From positions 96,259 through 160,258 of the forward strand of contig JAFEAM010000001.1 of assembly GCA_018266395.1 (NCBI GenBank): a DNA stretch of 64,000 bases, given 5' to 3'. The notes below the pieces were generated by a model. That model searched no databases, was not told the origin of the DNA, and saw only the letters and a list, made by a program, of their open reading frames with translations. A program made the position numbers and the translations under genes. Source of the stretch: Bacteroidota bacterium (GTDB taxonomy: Bacteria; Bacteroidota; Bacteroidia; Cytophagales; Cyclobacteriaceae). Below, piece after piece: positions 2,068 to 40,271 of this stretch. The number at the start of each line of letters is the position of its first letter. Within the stretch, counting starts at the first letter, position 1.

Positions 2068-3213
2068 ATGGCTGGGCTTTACTTACACATTCCTTTCTGC
2101 AAGCAGGCCTGCTATTACTGTGACTTTCACTTTTCAACGGACAGCAAGTATCGGATTGATCTGTTGAAAGCGATGGAGAAGGAACTTAGTCTGCAAAAAG
2201 ACTATCTCCGGGGCCAGGTGATGGGAACTGTCTATTTAGGCGGCGGAACACCATCCTTACTGACGTTCCAGGAGCTGAAGCACTTACTTGCCGCCATTCA
2301 TGAAAACTTTACCATAACCGCAGGTGCTGAGATCACGCTGGAGGCAAATCCGGACGATCTTCAACCTTGGAAACTGGAGGAGTTGAAGAGCCTTGGAATC
2401 AACCGCCTCAGCATCGGCATCCAGACTTTTGATGATCGACTACTCGAGTTCCTTCACCGCGCCCATAAGGGAGATGAAGCAGTGCAGTCTGTTCTCGACG
2501 CAAGGCGCTCAGGTTTTGATAACATCAGCATTGATCTTATTTACGGGATACCGGGACTTACCAATGAGTATTGGAAGGAGACAATCAGAAAAGCTCTGGC
2601 GCTTTCTCCAGAACATATTTCAGCCTATGCCCTCACTATTGAAGAGAGAACTGTATTCGGTCATCAGCTCAAAAAAGGAAAATTTCCCATGGCCGATGAG
2701 GAAATCGTTGCGCAGCAGTTTGAAATTCTCATGGATGAGATGGACACCGCTGGTTACCAGCATTACGAGATTTCGAATTTCTGCAAGCCAGGTCGGATGG
2801 CTGTGCACAACAGCAACTACTGGAAGCGTGAGCATTACCTCGGCATAGGTCCAAGCGCCCATTCGTACCGCGGTGACAGCCGGCAATTCAATGTGAAGAA
2901 CAATGCCATCTACATCCGGTCAATAGATCAGGGAGCCCTGCCATTTGAAAAGGAAATTTTGAGCCGTGAGGATCAGATTAATGACTATATACTCACCTCA
3001 CTCCGAACGTCGTGGGGCCTGAATGCCCTGACCCTCCTCGAAGAATGGAATGACGATCTTTGGACACGCTCATCGGCTCAATTGCACGGTTTGATTGACG
3101 CAGGCATGATCGAGTTTGCCGATCCAATTCTCCGGCTTACACGGAAAGGCAAACTGCTGGCAGATAAGATTGCGGAGGACCTTATGGTAGTCGCGGACCG
3201 CCAAACGAACTAG
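2068..3213 (+). CDS. hemW: Heme chaperone HemW (radical SAM)
   Basis: About 381 residues. The N-terminus GLYLHIPFCKQACYYCDF holds the radical-SAM CxxxCxxC cluster motif, and it is followed by VYLGGGTPSLL, EITLEANPDD, RLSIGIQTFDD and the C-terminal HemW region (YEISNFCKPG, HNSNYW, GIGPSAHSY). HemW proteins resemble oxygen-independent coproporphyrinogen oxidase HemN, but known members bind and transfer heme and lack the HemN activity. The motif spacing here fits HemW. The ATG at 2068 places the conserved GLYLHIPFC at the extreme N-terminus, as in the family; an upstream in-frame TTG at 2053 is less likely. It is divergent from the hemD operon. Confidence 0.93.
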   Translation: MAGLYLHIPFCKQACYYCDFHFSTDSKYRIDLLKAMEKELSLQKDYLRGQVMGTVYLGGGTPSLLTFQELKHLLAAIHENFTITAGAEITLEANPDDLQPWKLEELKSLGINRLSIGIQTFDDRLLEFLHRAHKGDEAVQSVLDARRSGFDNISIDLIYGIPGLTNEYWKETIRKALALSPEHISAYALTIEERTVFGHQLKKGKFPMADEEIVAQQFEILMDEMDTAGYQHYEISNFCKPGRMAVHNSNYWKREHYLGIGPSAHSYRGDSRQFNVKNNAIYIRSIDQGALPFEKEILSREDQINDYILTSLRTSWGLNALTLLEEWNDDLWTRSSAQLHGLIDAGMIEFADPILRLTRKGKLLADKIAEDLMVVADRQTN

Positions 3214-3294
3214 GCCTACGGGTGCTTTTTGAGCTGCAAAGTGACAGTCTTTGCGGGTTGCTCTGTTTGTGGCTATTTTTCGCCTCTCGTCAAT

Positions 3295-3660
3295 ATGACA
3301 TCAGAAGAAAAACAAGTCTACCTCCTTCTGAAGGCAGTCATCTTTTTCTATCATGGCCTTGACCAGGAAGAAAAAGAAGACCTCGAGGCTGCTGCAAGGA
3401 GAATGGATGCCGCAGAAGAATTGAAGTGGGCACTGGAGTTCATTGAGAAAGACTACATCACTTCATTTGAAAGAGCCCGCGCCTTTCTTAACGAGATCAT
3501 TGGCGACTACCCCAAAGACAAACGAGTGGATCTTATCAATATGGTGTGGGAATCCAACAACCTTAAAGGCTACGTAACCGAAATGGAAGCCACGGCCATG
3601 CTCAGGCTTGCCCGCGACTGGAATGTGGAGAAAGAGTTCGTGGAGCTGGTTTTAAAATGA
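3295..3660 (+). CDS. TerB-like helical protein
   Basis: A 121-residue all-helical acidic protein starting at MTSEEKQ. An upstream in-frame start at 3229 would add 22 Cys-rich residues that look unlike coding sequence. The C-terminal half (IIGDYPKDKRVDLINMVWE, GYVTEMEATAMLRLARDW) resembles TerB/DjlA-type helical domains, which carry acidic metal-binding positions. The TerB assignment is a pattern match from memory and does not imply tellurite resistance. It lies 81 bp after hemW on the same strand and may be cotranscribed. It converges on the LytTR regulator gene. Confidence 0.6.
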   Translation: MTSEEKQVYLLLKAVIFFYHGLDQEEKEDLEAAARRMDAAEELKWALEFIEKDYITSFERARAFLNEIIGDYPKDKRVDLINMVWESNNLKGYVTEMEATAMLRLARDWNVEKEFVELVLK

Positions 3661-35722: not shown

Positions 35723-35745
35723 GGTCAAGCCTTGAACTGCACTTC

Positions 35746-35959
35746 TCCCACACATTTCTCACACCTTTCTCAGACTTTTCTCCGACTCCTCTCAGACGTT
35801 TCTCAGACTTTCTCAGACGTTTCTCAGACTTTCTCAGTCAGTTCTCAGACTCCTCTCCGACAGTTCTCAGACTCCTCTCCGACAGTTCTCAGACTCTTCT
35901 CCGACAGATCTCAGACTCCTTTCCGACAGATCTCAGACTCCTTTCCGACAGATCTCAGA
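35746..35959. repeat. Tandem repeat array, 11/22-bp units
   Basis: Five consecutive 22-bp units (35841-35862, 35863-35884, 35885-35906, 35907-35928, 35929-35950) plus a partial sixth start with GTTCTCAGACT or GATCTCAGACT and end CTCCGACA or TTCCGACA. Upstream, from about 35770, shorter 10-12-bp units TTCTCAGACGT / TTCTCAGACT repeat in the same phase, so the basic period is about 11 bp. The plus strand is strongly pyrimidine-rich. An open frame across it (35648-35971) has repeat-derived S/F/L-rich content and is not a gene. There are no spacers, so it is not a CRISPR. Confidence 0.85.
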
Positions 35960-36120
35960 GCTTGCTTCTAGTCACTTTAGACTTTGTTTCGACTTACATT
36001 ACACGTTGCTTCGACTTACTATAGACAGGGTCCAGTCGTTTCCATAGGGTATTAAGTCTTGTCCACACGTTCGCCTGGGCCGGGGGGCGCGACTCAAGGA
36101 CTCAAATATCTCAGATCTCA

Positions 36121-36296: not shown

Positions 36297-36340
36297 GCTT
36301 CGACATTCAAAATTCCTTGTTCAACATTCTACATTCATCT
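36297..36340. repeat. Dispersed repeat (ATTCCTTGTTCA family), copy 3
   Basis: Reads GCTTCGACATTC, then AATTCCTTGTTCAAC and ATTCTACATTCATCT. The same core occurs at the ends of both 130-bp repeats and at 37893-37936. It ends exactly where the RAYT-like remnant begins. Confidence 0.6.
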
Positions 36341-36428
36341 AGCCTGCGCAATGTCAAGTCGCACTCGCTAACCACACATCCGCAACTGGGACAAAAGGTC
36401 CCAGTCAGTCTTGTTGCATAGATGGAAT
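36341..36428 (-). pseudogene. Remnant of RAYT 3' end with REP flank
   Basis: AGCCTGCGCAATGTCAAG and the following bases match the flank of the palindromes at 38529 and 39379, and continue into sequence matching the last ~55 bp of the RAYT gene at 39434-39979. On the minus strand the remnant reads SIYATRLTGTF where the intact RAYT has GFYLCNRTEWDF. No palindrome remains next to it. It looks like a decayed copy of the same element. Confidence 0.5.
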
Positions 36429-36713: not shown

Positions 36714-36947
36714 ATGAGCACAACTGAAATCAGAGCAGACCTGCATAAGATCGTCGACCGGATTGAAGATGAGCGTCTTCTGAGGGTTATCCATGATTTC
36801 CTGGAGGTAAGAGAAAAATCGACTGAAGGGAAACTCTGGAAAGAGCTTTCGCCTGAACAACAACAGGAGGTGCTTCAAGCTTATGAGGAATCAGAAGATG
36901 ACTCCAACCTGGTTGATGACAAAGAGGTTTGGAAGAATCTGAAATGA
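36714..36947 (+). CDS. Antitoxin of a ParE/RelE-type module
   Basis: 77 residues, acidic. The N-terminus STTEIRADLHKIVDRIEDERLLRVIHDFL is a helical segment of the kind seen in Bacteroidota antitoxins of RelE/ParE pairs, and the acidic C-terminal half is expected to wrap around the toxin. The stop TGA overlaps the toxin ATG (ATGA at 36944-36947), so the two are translationally coupled. The antitoxin and complex probably repress the operon; no operator is evident. Lies in the repeat-rich island. Confidence 0.75.
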   Translation: MSTTEIRADLHKIVDRIEDERLLRVIHDFLEVREKSTEGKLWKELSPEQQQEVLQAYEESEDDSNLVDDKEVWKNLK

Positions 36948-37234
36948 GACTGGTTTGGGCGAAGAAAGCCCAGCGAAGATTGGATGAGATTCTTGAATAC
37001 ATTGAAAAGGAATTTGGGACGACAGCAAGGCAATCTTTCCGCGACAAAGCCCGGAACTTCACGCGAATCCTGATTGAGTTTCCAGAAATAGGGACACTTG
37101 AAATCAAGGAAAAGAGTCTTAGGGCATTCCAGCTGACGAAGCAAACCAGGGTATTTTATCGAGTCAAGAAAGACAGAATCGTCATTTTGACTCTATTTGA
37201 TTCACGTCAGGATCCAAAGAAGAAACCGAAGTAA
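36944..37234 (+). CDS. ParE/RelE-superfamily toxin
   Basis: 96 residues, basic. The fold markers are VWAKKAQRRLDEILEYIEKEFG, KARNFTRILIEFPEIGTLE, and the C-terminal strand pair TRVFYRVKKDRIVILTLFDSRQDPKK. The RVFYRV plus LTLFDSRQDP ending is typical of ParE-type toxins. ParE members poison DNA gyrase and RelE members cut mRNA; which applies is not clear here. The ATG at 36944 overlaps the antitoxin stop, so the longer frame from 36929 is not used. Confidence 0.8.
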   Translation: MRLVWAKKAQRRLDEILEYIEKEFGTTARQSFRDKARNFTRILIEFPEIGTLEIKEKSLRAFQLTKQTRVFYRVKKDRIVILTLFDSRQDPKKKPK

Positions 37235-38053: not shown

Positions 38054-38515
38054 ATGAGAAATGTATTCCCCGTTGTTATTCTTTTGCTTTTGACCAGTTG
38101 CGGACAACAAAGTGTAGATATTAAGAACGAAGAAGAAAAAATTCTTCAATGCTGGACAGACTGGCCAAAGAAAGCAGTCAGCGGCAGCCCGGAATATTAC
38201 TTTGCAGACGATGCGATAATGATGGGGCAGGAACAACCTACTTTTAAAGGGAAAGCAGAAATCGCAAAGTTCTATGCAGGGATGCCTAAAATACCCGGAC
38301 TTCAAATTAAGTGGAACGACAGACCGAACATCATTGAGTTTTCGCAAGACGGACGAATGGCATATTCCGTTGACACCCTAAAATTTTCTATGACAGACAC
38401 AACTGGCACGGTTCAAACAAAAATCAACCAGGGGCTTCACGTTTGGAGAAAAGACAATGAGGGAAATTGGAGGGTTTCACTATTGTCAATATACCCTGCG
38501 CCCCTTTCGAAATAG
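38054..38515 (+). CDS. NTF2-like (SnoaL/DUF4440-type) lipoprotein
   Basis: 153 residues starting MRNVFPVVILLLLTSCGQQ, with lipidated Cys after the lipobox LTSC. The mature domain is a cone-shaped NTF2-like fold: EEEKILQCWTDWPKKAVSG, YFADDAIMMGQEQPTFKG, EIAKFYAGMPKIPG, HVWRKDNEGNWRVSLLSIYP. This is typical of SnoaL/DUF4440 proteins, which bind or isomerise small molecules or have structural roles. The longer frame to 37991 lacks a signal. Downstream of the 97-bp direct repeat. Confidence 0.72.
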   Translation: MRNVFPVVILLLLTSCGQQSVDIKNEEEKILQCWTDWPKKAVSGSPEYYFADDAIMMGQEQPTFKGKAEIAKFYAGMPKIPGLQIKWNDRPNIIEFSQDGRMAYSVDTLKFSMTDTTGTVQTKINQGLHVWRKDNEGNWRVSLLSIYPAPLSK

Positions 38516-38528
38516 CACTCACCCCGCC

Positions 38529-38553
38529 CTTGTTGGTTTTTAGAACCAACAAG
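38529..38553. repeat. REP palindrome A
   Basis: Ten-base arms CTTGTTGGTT and AACCAACAAG around TTTAG. Preceded by CACCCCGCC and followed by CCTGCGCACTATCAAGTCGC, the flank shared with palindromes B-D. The flank continues into an ~55-bp stretch resembling the RAYT 3' end (38570-38634). Confidence 0.85.
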
Positions 38554-38636
38554 CCTGCGCACTATCAAGTCGCACGCACTAATCACCCATCCGCGTGTGA
38601 CAATAAACCATTCGGTCTTTGCATAGATAATCCAGT

Positions 38637-38733
38637 TAGTAAGCCAAAAGGAGTATTTGGTAAGGGGTTGAGGATGATGTTGTGAAATAGCGGGAGCGCG
38701 GAGTAAATTCACAGATGGAGGATGAATCAACAA
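38637..38733. repeat. ~97-bp direct repeat, copy 2
   Basis: TAGTAAGCCAAAAGG through GAGTAAATTCACAGATGG, matching 37940-38037. It directly abuts the RAYT-end-like segment following palindrome A. Confidence 0.65.
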
Positions 38734-38787
38734 CAAAATTTCGGATACACTAAACGCTGTAAGTGACTCAGTTAACAGATCATTACA

Positions 38788-39018
38788 ATGGCAATTCATT
38801 TAGGACACGGTTCCACAAAAAGGGAAAAACCCAGGAAAGCATTTGAGTCAACTAAAGAGAATTATTCTAAAAGGTTGAGTTTTGGAGAATCCTCTATCCC
38901 TGAAGGAAAAGTCTACAGAAAACGATGGTCGAGAAACGAGTCCTGGTTTTGGACAAGTGTTAAGATTCTCATATTGATCTTTGCTCTATTTATAATGTAT
39001 AAGGTATTTACTGAATGA
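38788..39018 (+). CDS. Small basic membrane protein
   Basis: 76 residues. A basic, polar N-terminal 50 residues (HGSTKREKPRKAF, KVYRKRWSRNES) precede one C-terminal membrane helix (SVKILILIFALFIMYKVF). No family recognised. It lies in the repeat-rich island, beyond the second 97-bp repeat. The composition is consistent with a real small membrane protein. Low confidence that it is expressed. Confidence 0.45.
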   Translation: MAIHLGHGSTKREKPRKAFESTKENYSKRLSFGESSIPEGKVYRKRWSRNESWFWTSVKILILIFALFIMYKVFTE

Positions 39019-39095
39019 AATCAATTGCACTGCGCGTCCGAAGCCGCAGTCCTTATGTAAACTCCTCTTAACTTCAGCCGGTCAAAAATTGCACT

Positions 39096-39308
39096 ATGGC
39101 AAAAAACATTGTAATCAACGCGTTGGCAGTTGTGACCTTGATGTCACTGCTATATGGATTCACACAATCGACAGAAGCCGCCATTCAAAGGCGTCATGTA
39201 GACAAAGCCCAGGAAGAAATACTCAAACAGAGGGCGATCATATCAGACCTGGAAAAGAAACTTCAAGAGCAAAGTCAGTTGATAGAATCAATTCAAAAAG
39301 CTAAATAA
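39096..39308 (+). CDS. Small coiled-coil membrane-anchored protein
   Basis: 70 residues: an N-terminal membrane helix (NALAVVTLMSLLYGFTQ) and a long charged coiled coil (KAQEEILKQRAIISDLEKKLQEQ). No family recognised. The hydrophobic-then-coiled-coil pattern resembles small signalling or structural membrane proteins. Located between two RAYT/REP elements. Confidence 0.45.
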   Translation: MAKNIVINALAVVTLMSLLYGFTQSTEAAIQRRHVDKAQEEILKQRAIISDLEKKLQEQSQLIESIQKAK

Positions 39309-39378
39309 GCAAACGATGGACCTTTCCACCCTGCGGGTTCCTCCCTTGCTGCCTTCTCAATATAGCACCCACCCTGCC

Positions 39379-39404
39379 CTTGTTGGTTTCTAAGAACCAA
39401 CAAG
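39379..39404. repeat. REP palindrome B
   Basis: CTTGTTGGTT and AACCAACAAG around TCTAAG, same orientation as palindrome A, 30 bp downstream of the RAYT stop codon. Flank CCTACGCACTGTCAAGTCGC continues into the RAYT 3' end. Confidence 0.85.
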
Positions 39405-39433
39405 CCTACGCACTGTCAAGTCGCACTCACTAA

Positions 39434-39979
39434 TCACCCATCCGCGTGGGATAAAAAGTCCCACTCAGTCCTATTGCAGAGATAAAACCCCGCACTGGAA
39501 TATTTGTAGTCCTCCGGATACTTGCACAGCCCGGCGCGAACAGGATTATCATGGATATAGTCCAATTTCTGATCAAAAACCTTGGGTGTCCACAGCGAAA
39601 TACTCAACGCATTTCTTTTCCACACCTGACGATTGCGATCTTTTGCATTAACAATCAAAGAATCGTAAAGGGCATCATCGTCTGCTTTCAGTGCTTCTAA
39701 TATTCTCTGGGATGTAAACCTCAGGAAGTCCCGTTGAGCATCGCTGCGCTTGTGCTCACCCAACATTTGCCATATGATGTGGATATGATTGTTCATCAAT
39801 ACAAATGCATAGATCAACAATCGTTCGTTCCTGGTCAGAAACCTCATACTTTCTATGAGGATATCCTTGTTCCGATCTAAGGAAAGAATTGGCTTCCAAT
39901 CAAGACAAGTGGCTGTGATGAAATCCGGATGTTCACGAGCATAGATCACAAACACAAGGTGACTAGCTAAGCAATTCAA
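39434..39979 (-). CDS. REP-associated tyrosine transposase (RAYT, Y1_Tnp)
   Basis: Up to 181 residues of the IS200-like Y1 transposase superfamily. The HUH motif is His65-Ile-His67 in VLMNNHIHIIW. The likely catalytic Tyr141 is in YIHDNPVRAGLC, followed by PEDYKYSSA, which is diagnostic of RAYTs. Such proteins nick single-stranded DNA at REP palindromes and are usually domesticated single-copy genes. There is no ATG near the N-terminus: TTG at 39979, or GTG at residues 9 or 11, must be used, or the 5' end is eroded. It is bracketed by matching palindromes: A and B on its 3' side, C and D in opposite orientation on its 5' side. Confidence 0.88.
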   Translation of the reverse strand: MNCLASHLVFVIYAREHPDFITATCLDWKPILSLDRNKDILIESMRFLTRNERLLIYAFVLMNNHIHIIWQMLGEHKRSDAQRDFLRFTSQRILEALKADDDALYDSLIVNAKDRNRQVWKRNALSISLWTPKVFDQKLDYIHDNPVRAGLCKYPEDYKYSSAGFYLCNRTEWDFLSHADG

Positions 39980-40046
39980 ATCAATCTGGAATTCCTGATC
40001 ATTTTATTTGGCTAGAACTATTATGGCGGCCAGCATACAAAAAGAG

Positions 40047-40113
40047 CGTGGGGTTTGTGCTGCTTGAAAGTGTGCAGGCTTGTTGGTTCTAAAAACCAAC
40101 AAGGGCGAGGGGT
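40047..40113. repeat. REP unit C (67 bp) with palindrome 40079-40103
   Basis: Contains CTTGTTGGTT CTAAA AACCAACAAG in the orientation opposite to A and B. A near-identical unit starts 118 bp later (40164-40231). Shares GGGGTTTGTGCTGCTTGAAA on its left. Located upstream (5') of the RAYT gene. Confidence 0.85.
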
Positions 40114-40163
40114 ACCGGCCTAGGACCTATTGTACACCATTTACTCGAGGTAAATAGAAAAAG

Positions 40164-40231
40164 TGTCGGGGTTTGTGCTGCTTGAAAATGCGTAGGCTTG
40201 TTGGTTCTAAAAACCAACAAGGGCGAGGGGT
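40164..40231. repeat. REP unit D (68 bp) with palindrome 40197-40221
   Basis: Direct repeat of unit C with 118-bp spacing; palindrome identical to that in C. It lies about 40 bp from the stop codon of the methyltransferase gene on the minus strand. Confidence 0.85.
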
Positions 40232-40271
40232 GTGTGGTCCGAAGGCATTTACAACCGGGGCAAAGCGATCG

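Follow-up and report, generated by a model that had tools for sequence, protein, structure and literature searches.

A RAYT gene amid a family of short palindromic repeats: a probable REPtron of non-canonical type in Bacteroidota

The 64,000-nt stretch of DNA analysed in this study, here called the window, contains a gene for a REP-associated tyrosine transposase (RAYT) among four near-identical palindromes, and this locus raises the question of whether the enzyme and the palindromes form one system. We put the probability at roughly 85% that they do, as a REPtron in which a Y1/HUH single-strand DNA transposase, the RAYT, is accompanied by its own family of short palindromic repeats, which would spread by the mechanism proposed below. 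A first-pass annotation of the same DNA had already suggested a Bacteroidota REP family with its cognate enzyme. The RAYT gene occupies 39434..39979 on the minus strand as an intact open reading frame of 181 aa with a TTG start, between the second and the third palindrome of the window. Its HUH motif is NHIH (H65, H67) and its catalytic tyrosine, Tyr141, lies in YIHDNP; all three residues are the same in every sequence of two alignments, of 20 and 67 members, each including the window protein. The protein scores 90 bits against the curated RAYT model of NCBIfam, NF047646, which has a cut-off of 80, and the gene and active-site residues named in the first-pass annotation are borne out. Since Pfam PF01797 gives 14.3 bits, below its cut-off of 23, Pfam proved a weak guide, and it was NCBIfam that settled the family. 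The combination of NHIH with YIHDNP is the class-2 form, Y---NP, as this signature is given in the class descriptions of Quentin et al. 2018 (PMC6006769). Membership of the IS200/IS605 family (class 1) was considered and rejected, since the IS200 model NF033573 does not match the protein at E ≤ 1, PF01797 stays below threshold, and YIHDNP stands in place of Y---Q. The AlphaFold2 model of the RAYT has a mean pLDDT of 92.9, and the top Foldseek match of this predicted structure is 4er8, the E. coli RAYT-REP complex (E 6e-9, TM 0.61/0.66, 18% identity); the same entry, E. coli TnpAREP, is the sole PDB sequence match of a 20-member profile (E 7e-6).

The four perfect palindromes lie at 38529-38553, 39379-39404, 40079-40103 and 40197-40221, exactly as first annotated, and the pattern used for them, CTTGTTGGTTN{3,8}AACCAACAAG, matches four times in the window and not at all in 100 dinucleotide shuffles. 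Each of them is part of a longer REP-like element. On the 3' side of the RAYT gene, the nearer element (39357..39426, minus strand; model R1 84.0 bits, plus the pattern) contains the palindrome 39379-39404 and turns GTAGG toward the RAYT and GGC to the far side. The second 3'-side element (38507..38630, minus strand; R1 92.7 bits), around the palindrome 38529-38553, reaches a length of about 120 nt, as the homology continues into the 3' end of the RAYT coding sequence, with about 50 nt homologous to that end (blastn to unit positions 759-882, 85%). On the 5' side, the element at 40057..40125 (plus strand; R1 79.0 bits, plus the pattern) contains the palindrome 40079-40103 in the orientation opposite to that of the 3' side, and the element at 40175..40243 (plus strand; R1 84.1 bits) contains the palindrome 40197-40221; these two elements share a 64-nt direct repeat (95%). 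The strands assigned by model R1 also agree with the earlier description of two palindromes in one orientation 3' of the gene and two in the opposite orientation 5' of it. A degenerate fifth element, which has no stem, lies at about 36321..36395 on the minus strand (R1 23.3 bits, E 1e-4; repeat at 71%), and just past it the segment 36386-36436 is possibly a remnant of a RAYT 3' end, to judge from its weak similarity to RAYT residues 162-178 (tblastn, E 0.1).

In the orientation used here, the repeat unit extends over 69 positions of a covariance model built from the 13 perfect copies in the genome and reads GTGC..CTTGATAGTGCGYAGG-stem-GGGCGG.GTGGGTGC, that is, a stem of 10 bp plus loop with CTTGATAGTGCGYAGG before it and GGGCGG.GTGGGTGC after it. 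The extended conserved flank described in the first-pass annotation is real, but conserved sequence flanks the stem on both sides. The foot, one base before the stem, is GTAG in seven of the 13 perfect copies and GCAG in the other six, and every one of the 13 has GGC after the stem; whichever side of the RAYT an element is on, its GYAG end faces the gene and its GGC end points away. The canonical REP foot GT[AG]G is accordingly present in only those seven copies. We had read G[TC]AG as this canonical GTAG foot and dropped the reading because the foot is not common to the relatives. Hairpins of this kind could also act as intrinsic terminators or in host regulation, with a transposase gene nearby only by chance. 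The copies do lie mostly outside ORFs, and the single strands of six window stretches form stable folds (z -2.5 to -4.8), as such hairpins would. However, neither strand of any of the 13 perfect copies has a run of T after the stem, and for this reason the terminator reading was rejected; the conservation of about 69 nt around the stems, the restriction of the exact stem to its own genome and the way in which stems track the RAYT tree speak against host hairpins in general, which leaves chance proximity a highly improbable explanation.

The palindrome is not confined to the neighbourhood of this gene. The genome from which the window comes (G000; a 4.43-Mb assembly in 56 contigs) contains 13 perfect copies on eight contigs, compared with none of a reversed control pattern. 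A search with the covariance model returned 46 rows at E ≤ 1, and after 17 mirror-strand stem-only rows and four full-length rows with E > 1e-3 had been dropped, 25 elements remained. Three of these flank the intact RAYT, two flank a decayed RAYT on contig C44, and the other 20, among them the copy at 38529 about 0.9 kb from the RAYT, are solo copies that flank neither. The decayed second unit on C44 (about 2788-3434; L029) has stops and an internal deletion, and it retains the same palindromes in the same inverted layout. Four of the 25 elements lie inside ORFs of at least 80 aa and 21 outside, against 529 of 600 random window positions that fall inside by the same procedure, a simple ORF procedure rather than a gene caller, with the window alone as baseline. 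In the broad sense of a REP family, with many dispersed and mainly intergenic copies, these repeats qualify, and their copy number, only about 25, is low for such a family. The dispersed copies might be passengers of larger segmental duplications instead of products of the RAYT. The left flanks of three copies on contig C24 agree over 110 nt or more, and five elements at C31:54000-61000 (L192) form an array in one direction with a spacing of about 0.9 kb, which would suit such duplications. Apart from those on C24 and C31, however, the copies share little beyond the element itself when 110 nt to the left and 90 nt to the right are compared, and blastn matches of solo copies to the RAYT unit stop within about 70-160 nt, so that we regard passenger copies as quite improbable. 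In the C31 array, the loop of two elements contains a second palindrome of the type TGCCTGCCTGACGGCAGTCAGGCA. The same genome also carries a second intact RAYT-like gene on C7 (about 2847-3307; L030), 37% identical to the window RAYT, and a further, split RAYT-like gene at C35:17434-17905.

Genes related to the RAYT are common in the family. In a scan of 78 family genomes, one per genus except for two from the window's own genus, RAYT homologues were found in 59 and elements resembling those of the window (E ≤ 1e-5) in five, both counts including the window's genome; in one relative, G074, such elements immediately follow a RAYT and a RAYT fragment. Named genomes were also scanned, and the best 80 loci of at least 562 relatives were considered; the titles of these 80 are Bacteroidota groups with one exception labelled Ignavibacteria. 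L125, found in a Cyclobacteriaceae assembly, turned out to be identical with the locus of G014. The flanks of the relatives' RAYT genes frequently contain perfect hairpins, commonly with 10-bp arms, loops of 4-6 nt and GGC on the outer side, and their stems, such as CTTGTTGGTG, ATGGTCGGTG, CTGGTTCGTG, AATGTCAGTG and others, differ from the stem of the window. When three loci with short flanks and two duplicates (L064 = L125, L066 = L136) are removed from 110 loci, 105 remain, of which 64 have a hairpin with arms of at least 9 bp in the 5' flank and 63 in the 3' flank, against 1/59 and 1/59 distal controls; these counts take in stems of G and T only, for example TTTGTTGGTG. At least one flank carries such a hairpin in 77 of the 105 loci, and GGC occupies the outer side at 54 loci, compared with 11 for the inner side. 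The two flanks have matching stems at 39 of the best 80 loci of at least 562 relatives and at none of 59 controls; 33 of the 39 pairs are inverted and six run in the same direction. A GGC-tagged perfect hairpin is absent at 51 of 108 non-duplicate RAYT loci, including all nine of a more distant subgroup, where other hairpins lie nearby and none has the GGC tag. In G014 (L176-L182) most stems are followed by GGG instead of GGC, which indicates that the outer tag varies by lineage. Within the window's own genus, RAYT homologues are present in 48 of 62 genomes (E ≤ 1e-5; the window's genome included), the best being 50-59% identical. Among the 11 best other loci of the genus, six have perfect hairpins of the GTTGGTG-AAGAA-CACCAAC type, related to the hairpin of the window and different from it, and at the remaining five no clear perfect hairpin of this kind was found, either because there was none or because those present were imperfect or unrelated.

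The exact palindrome of the window is found in 0 of 389 other family genomes, and hence in one of 390 with its own genome included, so it does not occur at equal frequency where this RAYT is missing. Relatives carry variants of their own, and the type of stem follows the RAYT tree, as would be expected of a repeat family specific to its RAYT. For example, among the 77 other family genomes, the palindrome TTGTTGGTG is present in eight of the 10 with a RAYT match at E ≤ 1e-40, the strictest of three thresholds tried, and in seven of the 67 others (p 1.1e-5). At E ≤ 1e-28 the corresponding figures are 10/18 and 5/59 (p 7e-5), and with any RAYT match (E ≤ 1e-5) the co-occurrence is not significant (14/58 and 1/19, p 0.06). 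For a second palindrome type, TGGTTCGTG, the p value is 0.58 at E ≤ 1e-40, 0.002 at 1e-28 and 0.17 at 1e-5. Over 57 RAYTs, the distance between stems correlates with the distance between proteins (Spearman 0.48; none of 2000 permutations as high). On a tree of the same 57, whose rows were chosen by stem pairing and the GGC tag so that neither of these is independent evidence there, the stem types need 21 label changes against 28.3 when shuffled (none of 200 shuffles as low). Shared descent alone could yield part of this congruence, given the physical linkage of stem and gene. Even so, the enzyme and its repeats appear to be one co-evolving unit.

Taken together, the dispersed copies, a palindrome found in its own genome only and stems that track the RAYT tree identify this locus as a genuine RAYT/REP system of a non-canonical Bacteroidota type, in which binding, cutting and movement are attributed to the enzyme from its family membership and from the copy patterns. 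We propose that when the region becomes single-stranded, probably as the lagging strand, the palindrome would fold into a hairpin of 10 bp with a loop of 4-6 nt, which the RAYT would recognise together with the bases of the foot. Tyr141 would then cut nearby and form a 5'-phosphotyrosine link, and the released strand would be joined to another site, by which copies would accumulate mostly in intergenic DNA. Among the foot signals, the one that the clade shares most widely is not GTAG but GGC adjoining the stem at its RAYT-distal side (5'-GCC in the complementary strand), and it may serve in this recognition.

Some of the repeats preserve traces of the gene itself. In eight of the 20 solo copies, 15 nt or more are homologous to the 3' end of the RAYT coding sequence; a search of 400 nt to either side found the 5' coding end at none of the 20. 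The F.FL.H motif at the C-terminus of the RAYT protein also occurs in relatives that have different repeats. As this motif is kept where the repeats differ, solo copies with the RAYT 3' end most likely come from the RAYT unit and not the reverse. Fourteen C-terminal RAYT fragments were picked by hand in relatives: eight are followed by a perfect palindrome after 13-37 nt, and for the other six the next 200 nt contain none; an upstream palindrome was found for two of four N-terminal fragments. Two genus mates, G330 and G304, carry miniature elements that consist of a palindrome, RAYT residues of about 108-179 and a second palindrome, that is, internally deleted units comprising the 3' half of the RAYT gene (G330:C30 448-769, L218; G304:C45 about 215-535, L222). 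There are four complete copies, the three others being 96-98% identical to the query copy, and several partial copies lie at contig ends in G304. In the three copies that were compared base by base, the similarity stops sharply in unrelated flanks. Of 14 distinct left ends, 12 start with TAGTTG. Of the three bases that precede it in these 12, the first is always C, the second is C in 11 and the third is C or T in all 12; these bases may belong either to the target or to the end of the element. With their RAYT origin and sharp ends, the miniature elements suggest an insertion-sequence-like mobility of such units.

These observations bear on a different reading of the locus, in which the RAYT unit is still a mobile element resembling an insertion sequence, with the flanking palindromes as its ends and with solo palindromes and 3'-end fragments as its decayed or one-ended copies, rather than a domesticated REP population. 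The decayed full unit on C44 with both of its palindromes, the solo copies with a 3' end and no 5' end, and the sharp and recurring ends of the miniature elements would all agree with it. The miniature elements, however, belong to another RAYT subclade, with the stem ATTGTTGGTC, only one intact RAYT of the window's type exists in its genome, a single joined-flank search for an empty site gave no match across the join in 62 genomes, and six of the 14 C-terminal fragments have no palindrome in the expected place. We consider this reading a serious possibility that falls somewhat short of being probable. A bolder version, which we think rather unlikely, is that the RAYT is not domesticated here at all: the unit, from hairpin to hairpin, would still transpose single-stranded and insert after NCCY, with a GCC/GGC foot in place of GTAG, and by continuing to make miniature and 3'-end copies it would give rise to a REP-like population. 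If this were true, REP families would arise directly from the ends of RAYT units. The presence of solo repeats with a RAYT 3' end and of miniature elements from RAYT units in the same genus points to a direct route from transposon to REP.

The association of such enzymes with hairpins is not new in Bacteroidetes. In the subclass descriptions of Quentin et al. 2018 (PMC6006769), RAYT-like proteins are divided into subclasses, of which subclass 2.6 (Bertels group 5) is mainly from Bacteroidetes and has atypical hairpins without GT[AG]G that are copied elsewhere in the genome. Since this subclass is already in print, the window system is a REPtron of a kind already reported; the REP family with a cognate enzyme proposed in the first-pass annotation is supported. 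The window system, a possible member of subclass 2.6, shares with it a length of about 180 aa (median 179 in that paper), NH[LIV]H, Y---NP, its occurrence in Bacteroidetes and flanking non-GTAG hairpins with copies elsewhere. When the published motifs of the subclass signature (NH[LIV]H, WQ, YIH[QN]NP and a 21-aa insertion) are compared, the HuH motif fits and the W and Y motifs are each one residue off, the window protein having WK and YIHDNP where the table of that paper gives WQ and YIH[QN]NP. The hairpins of the subclass are called weaker there, whereas those of the window are perfect 10-bp stems. With the E. coli REPtron (TnpAREP, REP/BIME; 4er8) the window system has in common the fold and the catalytic motifs, and also the palindromes in both orientations around the gene and the intergenic copies, as outlined in PMC6006769 and PMC8266576. 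It differs from it in its unconserved GTAG foot, its stem without a bulge, the 18% identity of the proteins and its copy number of about 25, against about six hundred given in PMC8266576. IS200/IS605 elements such as IS608 and ISDra2 share the Y1/HUH enzyme and hairpin ends, and the genus miniature elements resemble them in their fixed ends and recurring left-flank sequence; apart from the protein differences noted above, they differ from the window locus in that its hairpins are inverted on two sides. The relative G074 has two inverted palindrome pairs about 120 bp apart with no RAYT between them (C3, L172, 657-776 and 4224-4344), which resemble REPINs (Bertels and Rainey 2011, PMC3116915), but outside the RAYT loci the window's genome, with its 25 elements, has no tight inverted pair of this sort.

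In the survey parts of Di Nocera et al. 2013 (PMC3733652), GTAG repeats are named for Proteobacteria, Cyanobacteria, Chloroflexi and the PVC superphylum, a list without Bacteroidetes, and CGTC repeats are placed in Bacteroidetes among others and not linked to transposase genes. The present repeats resemble both as tagged palindromic repeats, and CGTC repeats also in their phylum, but neither tag is the one shared here. According to the passages of Corneloup et al. 2021 (PMC8266576) on this subject, the spread of REPs is still to be elucidated and the mobility of tnpAREP is without evidence. Our additions to this picture are the pattern of a stem plus GGC, the co-evolution of stem and enzyme, the solo copies with a RAYT 3' end and the RAYT-derived miniature elements of genus mates. 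For the GGC-foot rule, phylum-wide co-evolution and RAYT-derived miniature elements, we found no prior report in the main text of the open-access papers searched. The dozens of co-diverged RAYT-palindrome pairs are ready-made material for swap tests of what a RAYT reads in its hairpin.

Two other features lie near the RAYT locus in the window. A gene at 36929-37234 encodes a ParE-type toxin (Pfam PF05016, 47 bits), and a small ORF upstream that overlaps it (36714-37234 together) has no family match above cut-off and may be its antitoxin. Positions 35745-35984 contain an array of units of about 11 nt, of the type TTCTCAGACTC / CTCTCCGACAG.
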